From: a virus
Length of the DNA stretch: 22,702 nucleotides
Reading direction: 5' to 3' (one strand)
Virus record (IMG/VR): IMGVR_UViG_3300006052_000032
Coordinates: 1 to 22,702 of that record
Of the stretch, positions 4,941-14,497 are shown piece by piece (the first letter of the stretch is position 1; each line of letters opens with the position of its first letter). The translations under genes and the position numbers were made by a program. Below the pieces are notes generated by a model. That model made no database searches. It saw only the letters and a list, made by a program, of their open reading frames with translations, and was not told where the DNA came from.

Positions 4941-5957
4941 TCAGATCGAAACGATGCCGGTGAAGCCTGTCACAACCGTGCAGACCTTCGGCTTCGCGAG
5001 TACGAGTTCGAGCAGGCTGATGACCGCGCCGATGTAACCGATCTGGAAATTCGAGAGCGTGCTCTCGAACCCCGAGAAGGCGAACGCGGCGCGCTCGTGG
5101 ATGTAGAAGGCGAGATACCCCGTGTTGAGGAGGTACAGCGTCCCTTCCGGTACGTAGGGGTCCATGTAGATCGGGACGCCCGAGACCATCATCGCGCGGA
5201 ACGCCGAGCGGGCACCCCACGGTTCGTCATCGAACCCCTTCTCCGGGGTGACGACATACGACTCGTTCGGCAGGAAGTCGTTCTGCAGGGTCTGCCACGT
5301 GGCAGGCCCCATGATCCCGAAGGTCGGCAGCTCGCCGCCGTACTTGAACGTGCCGGTGATGTACTGCGCGATCAGCGCGCGGGTCGGCGCGGCGCTCGCC
5401 GTGTAGCGTTTCGCCTTCAGCCACGGGTTCGTCGTGCGCGACTGGTTGCCGTAGAGGGAGGAGTTCGTGCCGTCGTCCACCGCGGCCGGGAGGCCAATCA
5501 CCTGTGCGGTGTTCGAGACGTTGTTCAGGAGCGCGGTCGCCAGTCCGTCGCAGTAGACATTGCCGGCGTCGTTCATGCGCGCGGCCAAGAGCGGAATGAT
5601 CTCGTGCGCGTCCTGAATCAGACCCTCGAAACCGAGGTACGGAATCGGAATCACCGCACCCTTGAGGTTGAATTCGAGGTTCGTCACCGCAGGCTGCACG
5701 GCCGGCTGATTGAACGAGCCGTCGTACCCGACCCACTGCATGTTGACGAACTGCTGGCCCTGCGCCGGGATCGTCACCGACGAGACACCACCGGAGGCCG
5801 GTTGGCTGTTCGCGATCAGCGCCGCAGTCAGCGGGGAGGTGTTGTAGATCTGGACGACGAGCTTCTTGACGAAGCCGCGGCGAACGACGTACTGCAACTC
5901 CGCGCCGAGTGAGTTGACGCCACCTGTGGGGAATACACCTGTGCCAAGGACCGGCAT
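4941..5957 (-). CDS. Major capsid protein
   Basis: 338 residues from ATG 5957, with AGGAG 9 bases upstream. It follows the scaffold-like gene and contains features of HK97-fold phage coat proteins: a long helix-prone segment (GFEGLIQDAHEIIPLLAARM, about 110-129), and a central region with PTFGIMGPATWQTLQ, where a residue stretch is queried as a domain. A late P-domain-like stretch follows (VSGVPIYMDPYVPEGTLYLL), ending in LNTGYLAFYIH and a hydrophobic C-terminal strand. The 'V-G-hPhYhDPyhP-G-hYhLNt' pattern is characteristic of coat proteins. It would self-assemble into the icosahedral shell around the scaffold. Family assignment within the HK97 fold is not possible by eye. Confidence 0.85.
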   Translation of the reverse strand: MPVLGTGVFPTGGVNSLGAELQYVVRRGFVKKLVVQIYNTSPLTAALIANSQPASGGVSSVTIPAQGQQFVNMQWVGYDGSFNQPAVQPAVTNLEFNLKGAVIPIPYLGFEGLIQDAHEIIPLLAARMNDAGNVYCDGLATALLNNVSNTAQVIGLPAAVDDGTNSSLYGNQSRTTNPWLKAKRYTASAAPTRALIAQYITGTFKYGGELPTFGIMGPATWQTLQNDFLPNESYVVTPEKGFDDEPWGARSAFRAMMVSGVPIYMDPYVPEGTLYLLNTGYLAFYIHERAAFAFSGFESTLSNFQIGYIGAVISLLELVLAKPKVCTVVTGFTGIVSI

Positions 5958-10638: not shown

Positions 10639-12438
10639 CTACGTCAGACCACGGAACTTGATTCCCTGCCGCGTGAGGTAATTTACCACCGACCGCTCTG
10701 CGGGCGTGAACACGCGCGCATCCTCCTCGGGGCGGTTCTCGCGCTGCCACGTGCGCTGATTGGCCTGCATCTCCAACATGATCCAGTCGTTCCACGCGAC
10801 AGTCGCGATCGCGAGCGCGATCACCCGGTCATCCTTCGCCCGGCCCTCGCCGCCGATCTGGTCACCCTGCCGATGGATGTTCCGGAACTGCTGCAGGCAG
10901 TCGGGGGAGTTGATCTCGATCATCTCGCGCTCGAAGTACGAGCGGAGCGTGGACATCATCCGGATCTTCTCCTTGGAGTTCGTCTGCCACTGATAGGCGA
11001 AGTTTCCGTGGATCGAGTCCTGCTTCTTCCACAGGTAGTCACGTATTCGACCCACGACGTCATACGCGCCCGCGCGAGGATCTCTGGGAGGAATGGTCGC
11101 ACTCTGCCTCTTCAGGTTCACGAGTTCGTTGAACACCGTCGCGCCCGGCCCCTGCATTTCAAGGTTCAACATGCAGTCGCCGTACCAGCCGGTGAGGTGC
11201 GCGATCACCCACGCGAACTGCGCCTCGGTGAATGCGGTCGAGCCGACTTCGGCAACCTGCACCACCTTGTCGGCGTAGCAGCGCAGCATACACCCGGCGA
11301 ACTCGTCGGCCCATTCGCTCGACCCGTAGGCCGGATCGCACCCGAGCACGTAGGTGCCGCTGCGCCCGCCCGGCGTCTTCGCGTGAACGGGGGTCTCCCA
11401 GATCGTCACCTCCGCGTTATCGGCGTTCGTCTCGATGAACTGAGTGTCCTCGAAATTGAGCCCGAACTCGTAGCGGAAGTGGACGGCCTCCTGCTTGATC
11501 GCTCTCTGGTGCGCCTGATTGACGCGCTCGGAGCTGAAGAACTTCGAGCCCGAGAGCTGAAACGCATAATCCTCGGTGGGGGGCATCTCCTGCAGGGCCA
11601 ACTGCTCGTCGCCCTTCATCTGCTCCGCGGTGTACCAGCGCCACCACGCGAGCTGCTCGTCGTTCACCTCGACCCGGTACTGGTCCCAGACATCCTTCAG
11701 CCACACCCGCTCTTCGGAGGTTGGCGAGCCGTCCCACCACGCCTCGTATTCCTTGCTCCCGCGCGCCCACGTATACAGCTCGTTCCGCCACCAGCCGACG
11801 AAGATCGCCTTCTGCGTCGCGCTCTTCTTCGCTACCTGCCACGCCTGATAGAACATGTTGTAGCCGCGCGCCGTGCTCTCGAACACGTAGACGCGCTTCG
11901 GGTTCTTCTGCGCGAGCGTGTTGATGAGAGAGCCGAAGCCCTCCTCGTCGCCCCACGAGCTGCACTCCGTGGCGTGCATGAAGTTCACCGACTTGGCTCG
12001 TCCGAGGTCACCCTTTTTCTTGGTCCCGGCCACCATGTACACGAGGCGCGACCCGTTCTTGAGCACGAGTTGAGTACGATTGTGGCGCTCAATAGGCGCG
12101 CGAGCCGTCGTCGGCAGGGAGAGTCGGTACTGCTCGATGTAGGAGCGGAACACCTCACGATTCTCATCCGTGTCCGTGACAATGGCACCCTGCAACCCCG
12201 GGTTCTTGGCGGTCCAGTAGAGATCGAATCCGAGCATCACCGAGCTGATGCCGAGCTGGCGACCTTTGAGCACATAGAACGTGTGGACGTCGTTGTTCAG
12301 CCCATCGGCGATCTCGTTGACGAGATACCGCTGAGTGCCGAGAAAGCGAAGAGGTACGCGCCCGAGTTCCTTCGAGTCGATGCGGAGCTTCCCGCAGAAG
12401 GTCTCGAACTTCACCGGATCGAAGACAGGATCGGTCAC
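10639..12438 (-). CDS. terL: Terminase large subunit (packaging ATPase/nuclease)
   Basis: 599 residues. I choose GTG 12438 because it overlaps the preceding stop as GTGA and removes about 27 unconserved residues. ATPase motifs: Walker A variant GRQLGIS (59-65), Walker B region SVNFMHATE with catalytic Glu 158 (the 'hhhSE/TE' form common in phage terminases), and the coupling motif FESTARG (186-192). RNase H-like nuclease: Asp 368 in LGCDPAYGS, Glu 427 in LNLEMQGPG and Asp 536/537 in AKDDRVIALA. It translocates DNA into the prohead through the portal and cuts the concatemer. All key residues are present, so it should be functional. Confidence 0.93.
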   Translation of the reverse strand: MTDPVFDPVKFETFCGKLRIDSKELGRVPLRFLGTQRYLVNEIADGLNNDVHTFYVLKGRQLGISSVMLGFDLYWTAKNPGLQGAIVTDTDENREVFRSYIEQYRLSLPTTARAPIERHNRTQLVLKNGSRLVYMVAGTKKKGDLGRAKSVNFMHATECSSWGDEEGFGSLINTLAQKNPKRVYVFESTARGYNMFYQAWQVAKKSATQKAIFVGWWRNELYTWARGSKEYEAWWDGSPTSEERVWLKDVWDQYRVEVNDEQLAWWRWYTAEQMKGDEQLALQEMPPTEDYAFQLSGSKFFSSERVNQAHQRAIKQEAVHFRYEFGLNFEDTQFIETNADNAEVTIWETPVHAKTPGGRSGTYVLGCDPAYGSSEWADEFAGCMLRCYADKVVQVAEVGSTAFTEAQFAWVIAHLTGWYGDCMLNLEMQGPGATVFNELVNLKRQSATIPPRDPRAGAYDVVGRIRDYLWKKQDSIHGNFAYQWQTNSKEKIRMMSTLRSYFEREMIEINSPDCLQQFRNIHRQGDQIGGEGRAKDDRVIALAIATVAWNDWIMLEMQANQRTWQRENRPEEDARVFTPAERSVVNYLTRQGIKFRGLT

Positions 12439-12758
12439 CGCCACGCTGCCTTCGCCCGCAGATCCGCGCGGAGCGCCTCGGGCTGCTTCATGACCCACTC
12501 CTCGACAGCCTCGTTCCACTGCCGCGCTGCGGCGCGATCGCGCTCAAGATCCTCGGTGATGTACCGATGCGTGACTTCCTTCACGTCGAGCCCGAGGAAC
12601 TCTGACAGAGCCCGGGCGTGCTTCCTGACCTTCTCCTCCTGATCGTCCTGCCACTGAAACCCCGTCGCTTCCGTGTGACGAAAACTCCCGGCAACGAGAG
12701 ACACGAACCATGCCTTCTTCGCGCTCGGCGTCTCGATCGTCGCAAACTCGACGTACAT
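12435..12758 (-). CDS. Hypothetical protein, possible small terminase subunit
   Basis: 107 residues. The start at ATG 12758 overlaps the previous stop as TGATG, favoured over an ATG six codons upstream. The N-terminal 40 residues are beta/mixed (YVEFATIETPSAKKAWFVSL). The rest is strongly charged helix (EEKVRKHARALSEFLGLDVK, EDLERDRAAARQWNEAVEEW). No clear HTH is visible. Its place immediately upstream of, and overlapping, the large terminase is where phages usually keep the small, DNA-recognising subunit, but similarity is not evident, so this is only a positional hypothesis. Confidence 0.55.
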   Translation of the reverse strand: MYVEFATIETPSAKKAWFVSLVAGSFRHTEATGFQWQDDQEEKVRKHARALSEFLGLDVKEVTHRYITEDLERDRAAARQWNEAVEEWVMKQPEALRADLRAKAAWR

Positions 12759-13006
12759 CAGGGGCCTTTGTTCCACGCCCGCACCGCTTCCTCAAGGTGA
12801 AGTGCCGGCGGACCGGCGGCGCCGCAGTTCCCGCACTCGATCGTGAACGTCCCAAGCTCGCCCTCGTCACTCACGTAGCGCGCCGCCTGAAGGTTCATCG
12901 AACCGCAGAAAGGGCACCACCGCGTCGGCTGCTCCTCGTTCCGCTTCGCTTCCTTCTCGGTCGCCTTCACGGCGCGGGCGACGGCCAGATTGATCGGATC
13001 GCTCAC
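12758..13006 (-). CDS. Lar-like zinc-ribbon protein
   Basis: 82 residues from ATG 13006, overlapping the KTSC gene stop by ATGA. Residues 31-35 WCPFCGS and 58-66 CGNCGAAGP form two CxxC knuckles. They are followed by the typical ending EEAVRAWNKGP, the pattern of the Lar restriction-alleviation family (short proteins with two CxxC pairs and a C-terminal 'eEAi.aWN'). E. coli Rac Lar modulates type I restriction-modification; many phage relatives are uncharacterised. Here the gene lies in the late operon before terminase, so an anti-restriction role on entry is not certain. Zinc binding is likely. Confidence 0.75.
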   Translation of the reverse strand: MSDPINLAVARAVKATEKEAKRNEEQPTRWCPFCGSMNLQAARYVSDEGELGTFTIECGNCGAAGPPALHLEEAVRAWNKGP

Positions 13007-13233
13007 TTCAGCCTCTCCTCATCGAACACCCCGATGACGCTCCGGGCGATGAACTTCCCCACAGAACTCGCCCCGAGCGCCGCCTGAAACACGGTCTCCG
13101 GCACATTCCGGTACCGGTAGATGTGCCCGGAGTGGAAATCCACCTCCATCGTGCCAGCACCCTCCTCGTCGGGCTCCCACCCGATCGAGGCGATGTTGCT
13201 GCTCGATACCGGCCGACGTTCCACGTGGAACAC
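13003..13233 (-). CDS. KTSC-domain protein
   Basis: 76 residues from GTG 13233, directly after the TGA of the upstream gene. Residues 10-74 match the KTSC domain pattern: SSSNIASIGWE, then EVDFHSGHIYRYRNVPETVF, then A-x-S-x-G-K-F. KTSC is a small beta domain named after its Lys-Thr-Ser-Cys signature and found in phage and bacterial proteins, with a suspected role in nucleic-acid-related functions. The first nine residues (MFHVERRPV) lie outside the domain and are encoded by a near-perfect parS sequence. A downstream GTG (codon 4) is an alternative start. Confidence 0.75.
   Translation of the reverse strand: MFHVERRPVSSSNIASIGWEPDEEGAGTMEVDFHSGHIYRYRNVPETVFQAALGASSVGKFIARSVIGVFDEERLK
13217..13232. 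promoter_or_regulatory. parS-like centromere site
   Basis: Minus strand reads TGTTCCACGTGGAACG, 15 of 16 matches to the bacterial parS form TGTTCCACGTGGAACA. The core is a perfect 14-bp palindrome (13218-13231). It overlaps the start of the KTSC gene in codons outside the domain. In bacteria, ParB binds this site to nucleate a partition complex. No ParA or ParB gene is visible in the window. Confidence 0.55.
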
Positions 13234-13596
13234 TCAGCCAAGGCGCGGCGGGAGCGGCCCGTTGCCACGCGCGGGCATCACGGCCGGCGCGTTCTCCTGC
13301 AGGATCTCCTGACCCAGAGTCTGCTGCAGCACCTGTGCCCGCACGGCGCGCTCGACGTGGCGCTTGAAGGGCACCGGCAGCTCGCCCGTGTCGGGCATCG
13401 GCTTCAAGAGCCCGCGCTGCTGCGCCAGCTCAAGGAGCCGGCTCGCGCAGTCGAGTGCCTCATCGGCGTCGGTGAACTTGCCGTTCCGAATGAAATCCAC
13501 CGCGAGCCTCACTCTGAGGTCGAGCTGGACCCCGTTGGTGAAGCTGTCGATGACGTTGCCGAGGTAGAGGTTGGTGTCCAATCGGGCGCTCTCCAT
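13234..13596 (-). CDS. Hypothetical late protein
   Basis: 120 residues from ATG 13596. The first 28 codons end almost entirely in G or C, unlike the competing frame in this stretch, which supports the long form. However, ATG 13596 lacks a clear ribosome-binding site, and a GTG at 13512 that overlaps the upstream stop as GTGA would give 92 residues. The protein has a helical core (ADEALDCASRLLELAQQRG, 43-61) and an Ala/Pro/Gly-rich C-terminus. The function is unknown. Confidence 0.6.
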   Translation of the reverse strand: MESARLDTNLYLGNVIDSFTNGVQLDLRVRLAVDFIRNGKFTDADEALDCASRLLELAQQRGLLKPMPDTGELPVPFKRHVERAVRAQVLQQTLGQEILQENAPAVMPARGNGPLPPRLG

Positions 13597-13832
13597 ATTC
13601 GCGTGATGCCGGGCCGAAGTTCTCGAAGGATAAATCGCAGCTCCATGCCGTAGACCTTGCGGAACCTGAACACGTAGAACGTCATCGACCCCTTCGAGCG
13701 ATCCACGTCGATCGCTTCCCCGACTTCCATCTGGGCGAGGGCGTTATAAATCGCTTCCTGCACGATCGAGGTCGAGTTCCATTTCGGAAACGGAGCTGAA
13801 ACCTTTCTGATGTTGACGGGCGGTCTGGGCAC
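13509..13832 (-). CDS. First gene of the late operon, hypothetical
   Basis: 107 residues from GTG 13832 with no obvious Shine-Dalgarno; a leaderless or internal start is possible. Residues 1-80 look like a folded beta/alpha domain (WNSTSIVQEAIYNALAQMEV, GSMTFYVFRFRKVYGMELRF). The last about 25 residues are Ser/Thr-rich (PTSTSATSSTASPTGSSSTS) with low GC in third positions, as expected where an 88-bp overlap with the next gene forces this frame. The end may therefore be non-functional tail or a frameshift boundary. It is the first cistron after the candidate promoter. Confidence 0.5.
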   Translation of the reverse strand: MPRPPVNIRKVSAPFPKWNSTSIVQEAIYNALAQMEVGEAIDVDRSKGSMTFYVFRFRKVYGMELRFILRELRPGITRIWRAPDWTPTSTSATSSTASPTGSSSTSE

Positions 13833-13864: not shown

Positions 13865-13894
13865 ATTACAACAGAATTGCAAGAATTATTGCAA
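13865..13894 (-). promoter_or_regulatory. Candidate late-operon promoter
   Basis: On the minus strand, TTGCAA (13894-13889), an 18-base spacer and TGTAAT (13870-13865) resemble sigma70 -35 and -10 boxes (4/6 and 5/6). They sit in the most AT-rich stretch of the area, about 30 bases before the first late gene. TTGCAA/TTGCAAT also recurs twice as a short direct repeat here, which could be a regulator site. Confidence 0.4.
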
Positions 13895-13986
13895 TTACCG
13901 TTGCAGGATTTTAGGAAAAATTTTTAGGCGGGGCTCGTTGGGGTCACCCTCAACGGAGGCGCTGGACCCAAGGAATTCCTTCGATT

Positions 13987-14011
13987 CCGCGCTGCACCGC
14001 ACAATGCTGCG
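13987..14011. repeat. Short form of the 15-bp iteron array
   Basis: This stretch contains CCGCGCTGCACC and, overlapping by two bases, CCGCACAATGCTGCG. Both sequences also occur in the four-unit iteron array at 17209-17268, where they are separated by 23 bases. It looks like a shortened or independently built copy of that array on the far side of the early operon. Confidence 0.45.
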
Positions 14012-14115
14012 CTGCCGCATCGACTTTACATAATAACGATTATGCGAACTAGGCATCTAAGCCATTGATCTGTAACCAATTTCCCCACCACTGACCCATC
14101 TAGGGGCAATTTGCG

Positions 14116-14230: not shown

Positions 14231-14394
14231 GGCACGATTCTTTCCGGCGTCCCGCAAGCGTTCGGGAGGCCGCTCTAGGGCCTCTCGCTTTGGCACGATT
14301 CTTTCCGGCGTCCCGCAAGCGTTCGGGAGGCCGCTCTAGGGCCTCTCGCTTTGGCACGATTCTTTCCGGCGTCCCGAAGCAAATCGGGAGGCCG
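14231..14394. repeat. 61-bp tandem repeat, 2.7 copies
   Basis: Units at 14231-14291 and 14292-14352 are identical; a third partial unit occupies 14353-14394. Each carries a hairpin: CGGCGTCCCG, 8-base loop, CGGGAGGCCG (10-bp stem with one mismatch). In unit 3 the stem is unchanged while the loop is replaced by a different 8-base sequence. Units 1 and 2 also contain GAGGCC/GGCCTC in inverted orientation. It is too few and too closely spaced for a CRISPR array, and fits an origin or protein-binding array. Confidence 0.9.
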
Positions 14395-14458: not shown

Positions 14459-14497
14459 GGGGAAAAGCTGTGAATTGCGGGGAAAACCTGTGGATAA
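14459..14497. other. 20-bp direct repeat with DnaA box
   Basis: GGGGAAAAGCTGTGAATTG (14459-14477) and GGGGAAAACCTGTGGATAA (14479-14497) form a 20-bp-period repeat. The second copy ends in TGTGGATAA, the complement of the perfect DnaA box TTATCCACA; the first matches it in 7 of 9. This suggests host DnaA-assisted origin melting or regulation. The remaining bases to 14728 hold a TTGACA at 14640 without a good -10. Confidence 0.5.

Follow-up and report, generated by a model that had tools for sequence, protein, structure and literature searches.

Does a phage that carries a bacterial parS site, and in which no gene for a reader of this site was found, make use of the chromosome-segregation system of its host? 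The question is raised by a stretch of 22,702 bases from an IMG/VR virus record, called here the window, whose early phage genes include a VapE-type primase-helicase, DUF2800 and an Enc34-type ssDNA-binding protein, and whose minus-strand gene block includes the terminase (Table 1). In bacteria, chromosomal ParB is reported to bind the 16-bp parS, to close with CTP and to slide outwards, linking the DNA to ParA and SMC (PMC8494293, PMC12704722). A preliminary description of the window had pointed to a minus-strand match of 15 positions in 16 to this site, and the match was confirmed: the 14-bp palindromic core (13218-13231) is perfect and identical to that of chromosomal parS, making the whole a close variant of the 16-bp palindrome TGTTYCACGTGRAACA. 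No other place in the window comes within three mismatches of parS, and shuffled sequence gave a mean of 0.09 matches at this tolerance; a published search rule for chromosomal sites is the consensus TGTTTCACGTGAAACA with two mismatches allowed (PMC10197239). For the four forms of the core, GTTYCACGTGRAAC, base composition predicts 0.0002 exact copies in the window and a dinucleotide model 0.0003, which bears out the earlier claim that chance occurrence is far below one. By its letters, the window site looks like a genuine parS.

Table 1. Features of the window that bear on the parS-like site.
Feature	Position	Strand	Remark
Large terminase gene	10639..12519	minus	tblastn to annotated terminases; probe for relatives
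KTSC-domain gene, overlapped by the site	13003..13233	minus	PF13619, E 7.9e-16
parS-like 16-mer TGTTCCACGTGGAACG	13217..13232	minus	15/16 to TGTTCCACGTGGAACA
Conserved late-leader element AAGGAATTCCTTGGG...GTGACCCC	13940..13981	minus	common to related parS-bearing phages
Inverted repeat CATAATCGTTATTATG	14029..14044	minus	upstream of the leader element; kept in several relatives

The preliminary description had placed the site in the first codons of the KTSC gene, at the head of the late operon. The overlap with the KTSC start stands, but the rest needs correction. In 19 homologous loci of related phages (about ten of them distinct; a twentieth is truncated) the position aligned to the central GTG of the palindrome (13224) is occupied by an ATG or GTG, and neither the palindrome nor an FHV extension occurs at the aligned KTSC position in any of the 19. 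The true start of the gene, with start codons inferred solely from alignment, is thus probably GTG 13224, in the middle of the palindrome, and with this start the half-site 13225-13231 would be leader and not codons. Since the homologues start at the mid-palindrome GTG or ATG without having the palindrome, the KTSC protein does not account for the site. The late operon does not begin here either, as two mechanically called minus-strand ORFs (13509-13832 and 13234-13596) separate the site from the late leader. The gene adjoining KTSC (12758-13006) matches Lar, a protein of restriction alleviation (PF14354, 32.9 bits, cut-off 28.6).

Conservation of the palindrome at the KTSC start had been proposed as the check on its function. 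At that place the homologues keep the N-terminus and are without the palindrome, which is the outcome that had been named as a refutation; parS at the KTSC start is, from the alignments, the window's own place, at which relatives do not keep the site. However, several related phages carry exact parS near the same late leader, so that a check confined to KTSC was too narrow. A search of viral contigs with the KTSC protein brought up no relatives, and the terminase succeeded, yielding 21 loci; a terminase alignment then gave 600 stretches, and the 80 best of these, some coinciding with the 21, were taken further. An exact member of the parS class was present in 12 of the 100 loci examined (the window included; L232 is the same contig as L137), and a one-mismatch copy in the MAG contig L224 was not counted as parS. 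The close set, with the window included and the duplicates L230 and L232 removed, comprises 32 loci and 364 kb, and holds GTTYCACGTGRAAC exactly 13 times and a one-mismatch copy not once, despite 152 one-mismatch neighbours. Across 1260 half-site arrangements, parS among them, the average is 0.028 matches in the same set; parS has 13, two arrangements that share a member with it have nine each, and all others together have four. The 66 more distant loci (638 kb) have no exact copy, and the one-mismatch copy belongs to this set. One of the 13 close-set copies, that of L254, lies inside a structural protein motif (compared by eye) and may be accidental; it stays in the count and is not used as support.

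A few further features of these relatives were recorded. In L137 a tRNA-like gene (1479-1550) lies directly downstream of parS. In L123, short direct repeats (TTTGTGCGTAC, TTGTGCAG; found by eye, 5880-5950) stand directly beside parS in a plasmid-iteron-like manner, and parS and repeats adjoin a gene with an AAA_25 (PF13481) match. A terminase-alignment scan of genome contigs was rejected as a source for the host, having returned two MAG contigs only (44% and 35% identity), the labels of which, Lentisphaerae and Acidobacteriaceae, were not trusted.

Upstream of the late genes, several relatives have a non-coding leader formed by the inverted repeat CATAAT-ATTATG, AAGGAATTCCTTGGG and then GTGACCCC. 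In the window the same series, followed by an A/T tract, occupies a strongly conserved region (13885-14050), which may be a set of operators or a structured RNA leader; at gathering thresholds, Rfam gave no match on the window. When all viral contigs were scanned, the leader element was found in 13 records, and with the window and L137, whose leader copy is diverged, the leader-bearing records number 15, falling into eight distinct groups (at most 88% terminase identity). Exact GTTYCACGTGRAAC is present in 11 of these 15 and a one-mismatch copy in none. The 11 records represent five lineages with 64-75% terminase identity, the members of one lineage being counted once because their terminases are identical, and three parS-class forms occur among the five (GTTCCACGTGGAAC, GTTCCACGTGAAAC and GTTTCACGTGAAAC). 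In four lineages the site lies upstream of the leader, at -223, at -179, at -570, or at -325 and -270, the last being two copies 55 bp apart; unlike these, the window site is at +750, across the KTSC start.

In other groups the site is missing. The nearest relative of the window, L345 (79% terminase identity), has no parS upstream of the leader (898 bp) or downstream of it (13.2 kb), and the L124/L346 group, which includes a 37.7-kb record, has no copy over good coverage. The L129/L341 group also has none, but its sequence reaches only 360 bp upstream of the leader, and in L351, likewise without parS, the record ends 150 bp upstream of the leader, the site of its sister records being at -179. 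The picture, as read from these sequences, is of a parS gained, lost and relocated among relatives, and exact wherever present. The exactness is that of a site under selection across related genomes, both in the close set and in the leader-bearing records, within the limits that two well-covered groups lack the site and that the window copy stands at a place of its own.

Between its early and its late genes the window also holds a tandem array (14231-14394), in which a unit of 61 bases is repeated 2.7 times with 96% matches, and a consensus DnaA box, TTATCCACA, at about 14489-14497. The box suggested a replication origin beside the leader, an idea that was dropped after no consensus box was found within 1 kb of the leader in eight relatives.

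As to the reader of the site, no ParB_N domain (PF02195) was found in the window, in line with the earlier statement that no ParB is encoded, nor in 11 virus records of relatives, which are mostly fragments; 7 of these 12 records hold the site (including the doubtful one of L254), and the same search was positive in 10 of 14 control genomes. We therefore term the site orphan. With ParB_N absent from all 12 virus records, it does not appear to share its replicon with parA and parB close to oriC, as a chromosomal site would, or to be part of a phage parABS system with its own ParA and ParB; it agrees with the phi29-type arrangement, in which parS is present and the phage's own ParB is absent. 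With a parS-type site and no ParB_N domain in the window, host ParB is the likely reader, and the suggestion to this effect in the preliminary description is supported. A tyrosine integrase is absent from 11 of the 12 records, and the one that has it is without parS. This absence is no argument by itself, since controls differ little: a depletion of integrases in parS-bearing viral records (0 of 46, against 2 of 39 controls, p = 0.21) was considered and dropped. The parS-bearing relative G022 (41,353 bp, two sites) is probably complete, as it has a 127-base direct terminal repeat, and several of its genes that were examined match DNA polymerase, helicase and primase families.

We consider it reasonably likely that the window carries a functional orphan parS of the chromosomal type, which would nucleate host ParB on a non-integrated phage genome for its positioning or retention. 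A number of relatives have this signal close by as well, which makes the site probably a real handle for borrowing a host protein. Given an exact parS core and no ParB found, the phage DNA should be loaded with host ParB; we infer binding of host ParB to the site strongly and with good confidence, and a role in retention or positioning with moderate confidence. At infection, the ParB of the host would bind the phage parS, close as a CTP clamp and slide over the neighbouring phage DNA. The non-integrated genome would in this way become attached to the origin-segregation machinery of the host (ParA, SMC, polar or origin foci), and could, before lysis or instead of it, be given a position or be retained in cells that divide or grow slowly. 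Attachment to this machinery is proposed as the most likely use because no ParB domain and no tyrosine integrase was found in the phage, and the precedents of phi29 with Spo0J and of SGI1 with the ParABS of a helper plasmid favour, by analogy, a use in keeping the genome.

Host ParB might instead be loaded at the site chiefly to silence or time the late operon, by spreading near the late leader. The site lies within 750 bp of this leader in all five site-bearing lineages, and the ParB of P. aeruginosa is reported to repress promoters adjoining the intergenic parS3 and parS4 (PMC5521831). However, both the distance and the side relative to the leader vary by lineage (-570 to -179; +750), a variation not easily tolerated by a promoter-specific operator, and the sites of named phages are found in other contexts, a terminal repeat and a portal gene among them. 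We regard control of the late operon as unlikely to be the main function.

Positioning or retention through host ParB, the reading preferred here, can also be viewed against viral sequences at large, in which the parS 16-mer is enriched over two control palindromes of the same plan: TGTTCCACGTGGAACA was found in at least 120 viral stretches, and the controls in 10 and 29 (complete scans). Just outside the 14-mer, at a base that the search pattern did not include, T stands in 163 of 242 half-sites (121 copies), and in 161 of 238 with duplicate contexts removed, compared with 56 of 175 lone half-sites in the same loci (p about 1e-12 against the parS half-sites, if independent). Forty-six parS-bearing viral records, mostly chosen for length, were taken from among 80 scan matches listed; ParB_N was found in one of them and a Terminase_6N match in 13 (11 above cut-off), while 39 control viral records held no parS. 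Stretches with two to four sites (12 of 141) would suit a decoy, in which the parS copies of the replicating phage titrate ParB or SMC and so disturb host segregation or an SMC-like defence, and for SGI1 and IncC it is reported that additional parS copies make a ParABS replicon unstable (PMC10954446). The other 129 stretches, all being parts of contigs, have a single site, which is a weak titrant beside the several sites of a host, and we find interference of this kind quite improbable.

Named phages were searched by BLAST with four short stretches of parS context, which gave 135, 255, 201 and 125 records, of which 52, 179, 151 and 73 had at least 99% identity; three control contexts gave 0, 77 and 19 records (0, 12 and 0 at this identity), a comparison that is only rough, since the flanks differ between queries. 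The window's own site context gave 53 named-phage records, 26 of them at 99% identity or above. These are counts of records and not of parS, as matches need not span the whole core. Eighteen of the listed phages, a non-random choice made for host diversity or because they were doubtful, were fetched and checked base by base; the core is exact in 17, and one mismatch off in Siara. Ten of the 17 exact cases lie outside annotated genes: Gordonia phages Orchid and MrWormie, Arthrobacter phage Racecar, Roseobacter phage DSS3P8, Clavibacter phage CMP1, Lactobacillus phage Bromius, a Xenohaliotis phage, Bacillus phage vB_BcoS-136 (three copies), Pseudomonas phage phiPsa374 (in the terminal repeat) and an inovirus (two copies). 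The other seven are inside genes: OneinaGillian, Emotion, Ranunculus, JAMaL (a Mycobacterium match, holding the whole core), Goe1, K64-1 and Tunturi_2, a phage of an acidobacterium; a portal gene is among the contexts. ParB_N was above the cut-off in none of the first 13 named phages searched, with a weak match below it in Ranunculus.

The exact 16-mer of Klebsiella phage K64-1 lies inside a baseplate gene, and other Klebsiella phages are among the BLAST matches listed. This host group is not known to have chromosomal parS, so that some phage copies may be coding accidents, and not every copy should be read as functional. In four phages of the checked set (L361, L365, L368 and L370) parS lies near a genome end or in the direct terminal repeat: at 78.5 and 79.4 of 80.7 kb in Orchid, at 1.7 of 58.7 kb in CMP1, at 45.0 of 45.1 kb in Emotion, and in the repeat in phiPsa374. 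Such a position might be relevant at DNA entry. The inovirus record (L377, 5.9 kb) has its exact copies at 603-616 and 630-643, in an intergenic gap; the parS probe matches 10-12 places in this and two similar records, which likely hold further copies.

The spread of the site over phages also bears on the possibility that the palindrome is the operator of a phage-encoded regulator and its resemblance to parS fortuitous. The leader contains two further conserved palindromes, AAGGAATTCCTT and CATAAT-ATTATG, so that dimeric DNA-binding proteins may be used by the phage at this place. However, the variant forms encountered belong to parS, and the 16-mer, its outer T/A included, is over-represented in viral contigs and present in named phages of many hosts, which one phage regulator cannot account for; we judge this explanation very improbable. 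An origin of the window copy by accident of coding, where KTSC starts, is just as improbable, for although its place is not common to relatives, the nearest relative lacks the site and the L254 and K64-1 copies may likewise be accidents, 0.0002-0.0003 copies are expected in the window and exact copies lie near the same leader in four other lineages.

A generalisation of the preferred reading, borrowing of host ParB by a non-integrated genome, stands for us about evenly poised between true and false: orphan chromosomal-type parS would be a widespread cis-element of phages whose hosts have ParB and mostly do not sporulate, an element gained, lost and shifted about in phage genomes, which recruits host ParB so that the non-integrated genome rides the origin-segregation system of the host, a generalised form of the phi29 trick. 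No publication on orphan chromosomal parS in phages at large was found by title or opening abstract, in a search of mostly freely available literature. If host ParB reads these sites, phages without a partition system still gain a handle on the chromosome-segregation machine of the host. This would offer a mechanism for carrier states and pseudolysogeny in integrase-less phages and would make the position of a phage in the cell predictable from its sequence, and the idea is open to direct testing in laboratory pairs of Gordonia, Microbacterium and Bacillus phages with their hosts.

Among known systems, bacterial chromosomal parS, such as parS1-4 of P. aeruginosa, has the same 16-bp palindrome as the window. 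Chromosomal parS sites of bacteria are reportedly treated by Livny et al. in 2007. The window site differs from them in lying on a phage, with no ParB gene found beside it and no oriC cluster. P1, N15, RedRock and other actinobacteriophages have, as here, a partition site on a possibly extrachromosomal phage genome, but these phages are described as encoding their own ParA and ParB and having other parS sequences, which in RedRock are arrays of 8-bp repeats (PMC7157519). SGI1 is closer in its strategy, being a mobile element that carries parS sites and is reported to rely on the ParA/ParB of an IncC plasmid for its own stability, thus exploiting the ParABS of another replicon; its sites, however, are described as of plasmid type (22-bp inverted repeats) and read by a plasmid-encoded ParB, whereas the window phage has a 16-mer of chromosomal type (PMC10954446).

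The Bacillus phage phi29 resembles our proposal in that a phage genome is handled by host ParB. The phi29 genome and host Spo0J are said to be the subject of Meijer et al. in 2005. According to a further source, host Spo0J (ParB) entraps the phage genome in the spore (PMC9437464). Goe1, a phage of the phi29 family, has an exact parS-type site, located in its endolysin gene. The outcome in phi29 is different, namely trapping in the B. subtilis spore under Spo0A control, and the window phage has another gene set and a GC-rich genome. Use of host ParB by phi29 was thus already known; what appears to be new is an orphan site of the chromosomal type in another phage family, together with signs that such sites may be common among phages.
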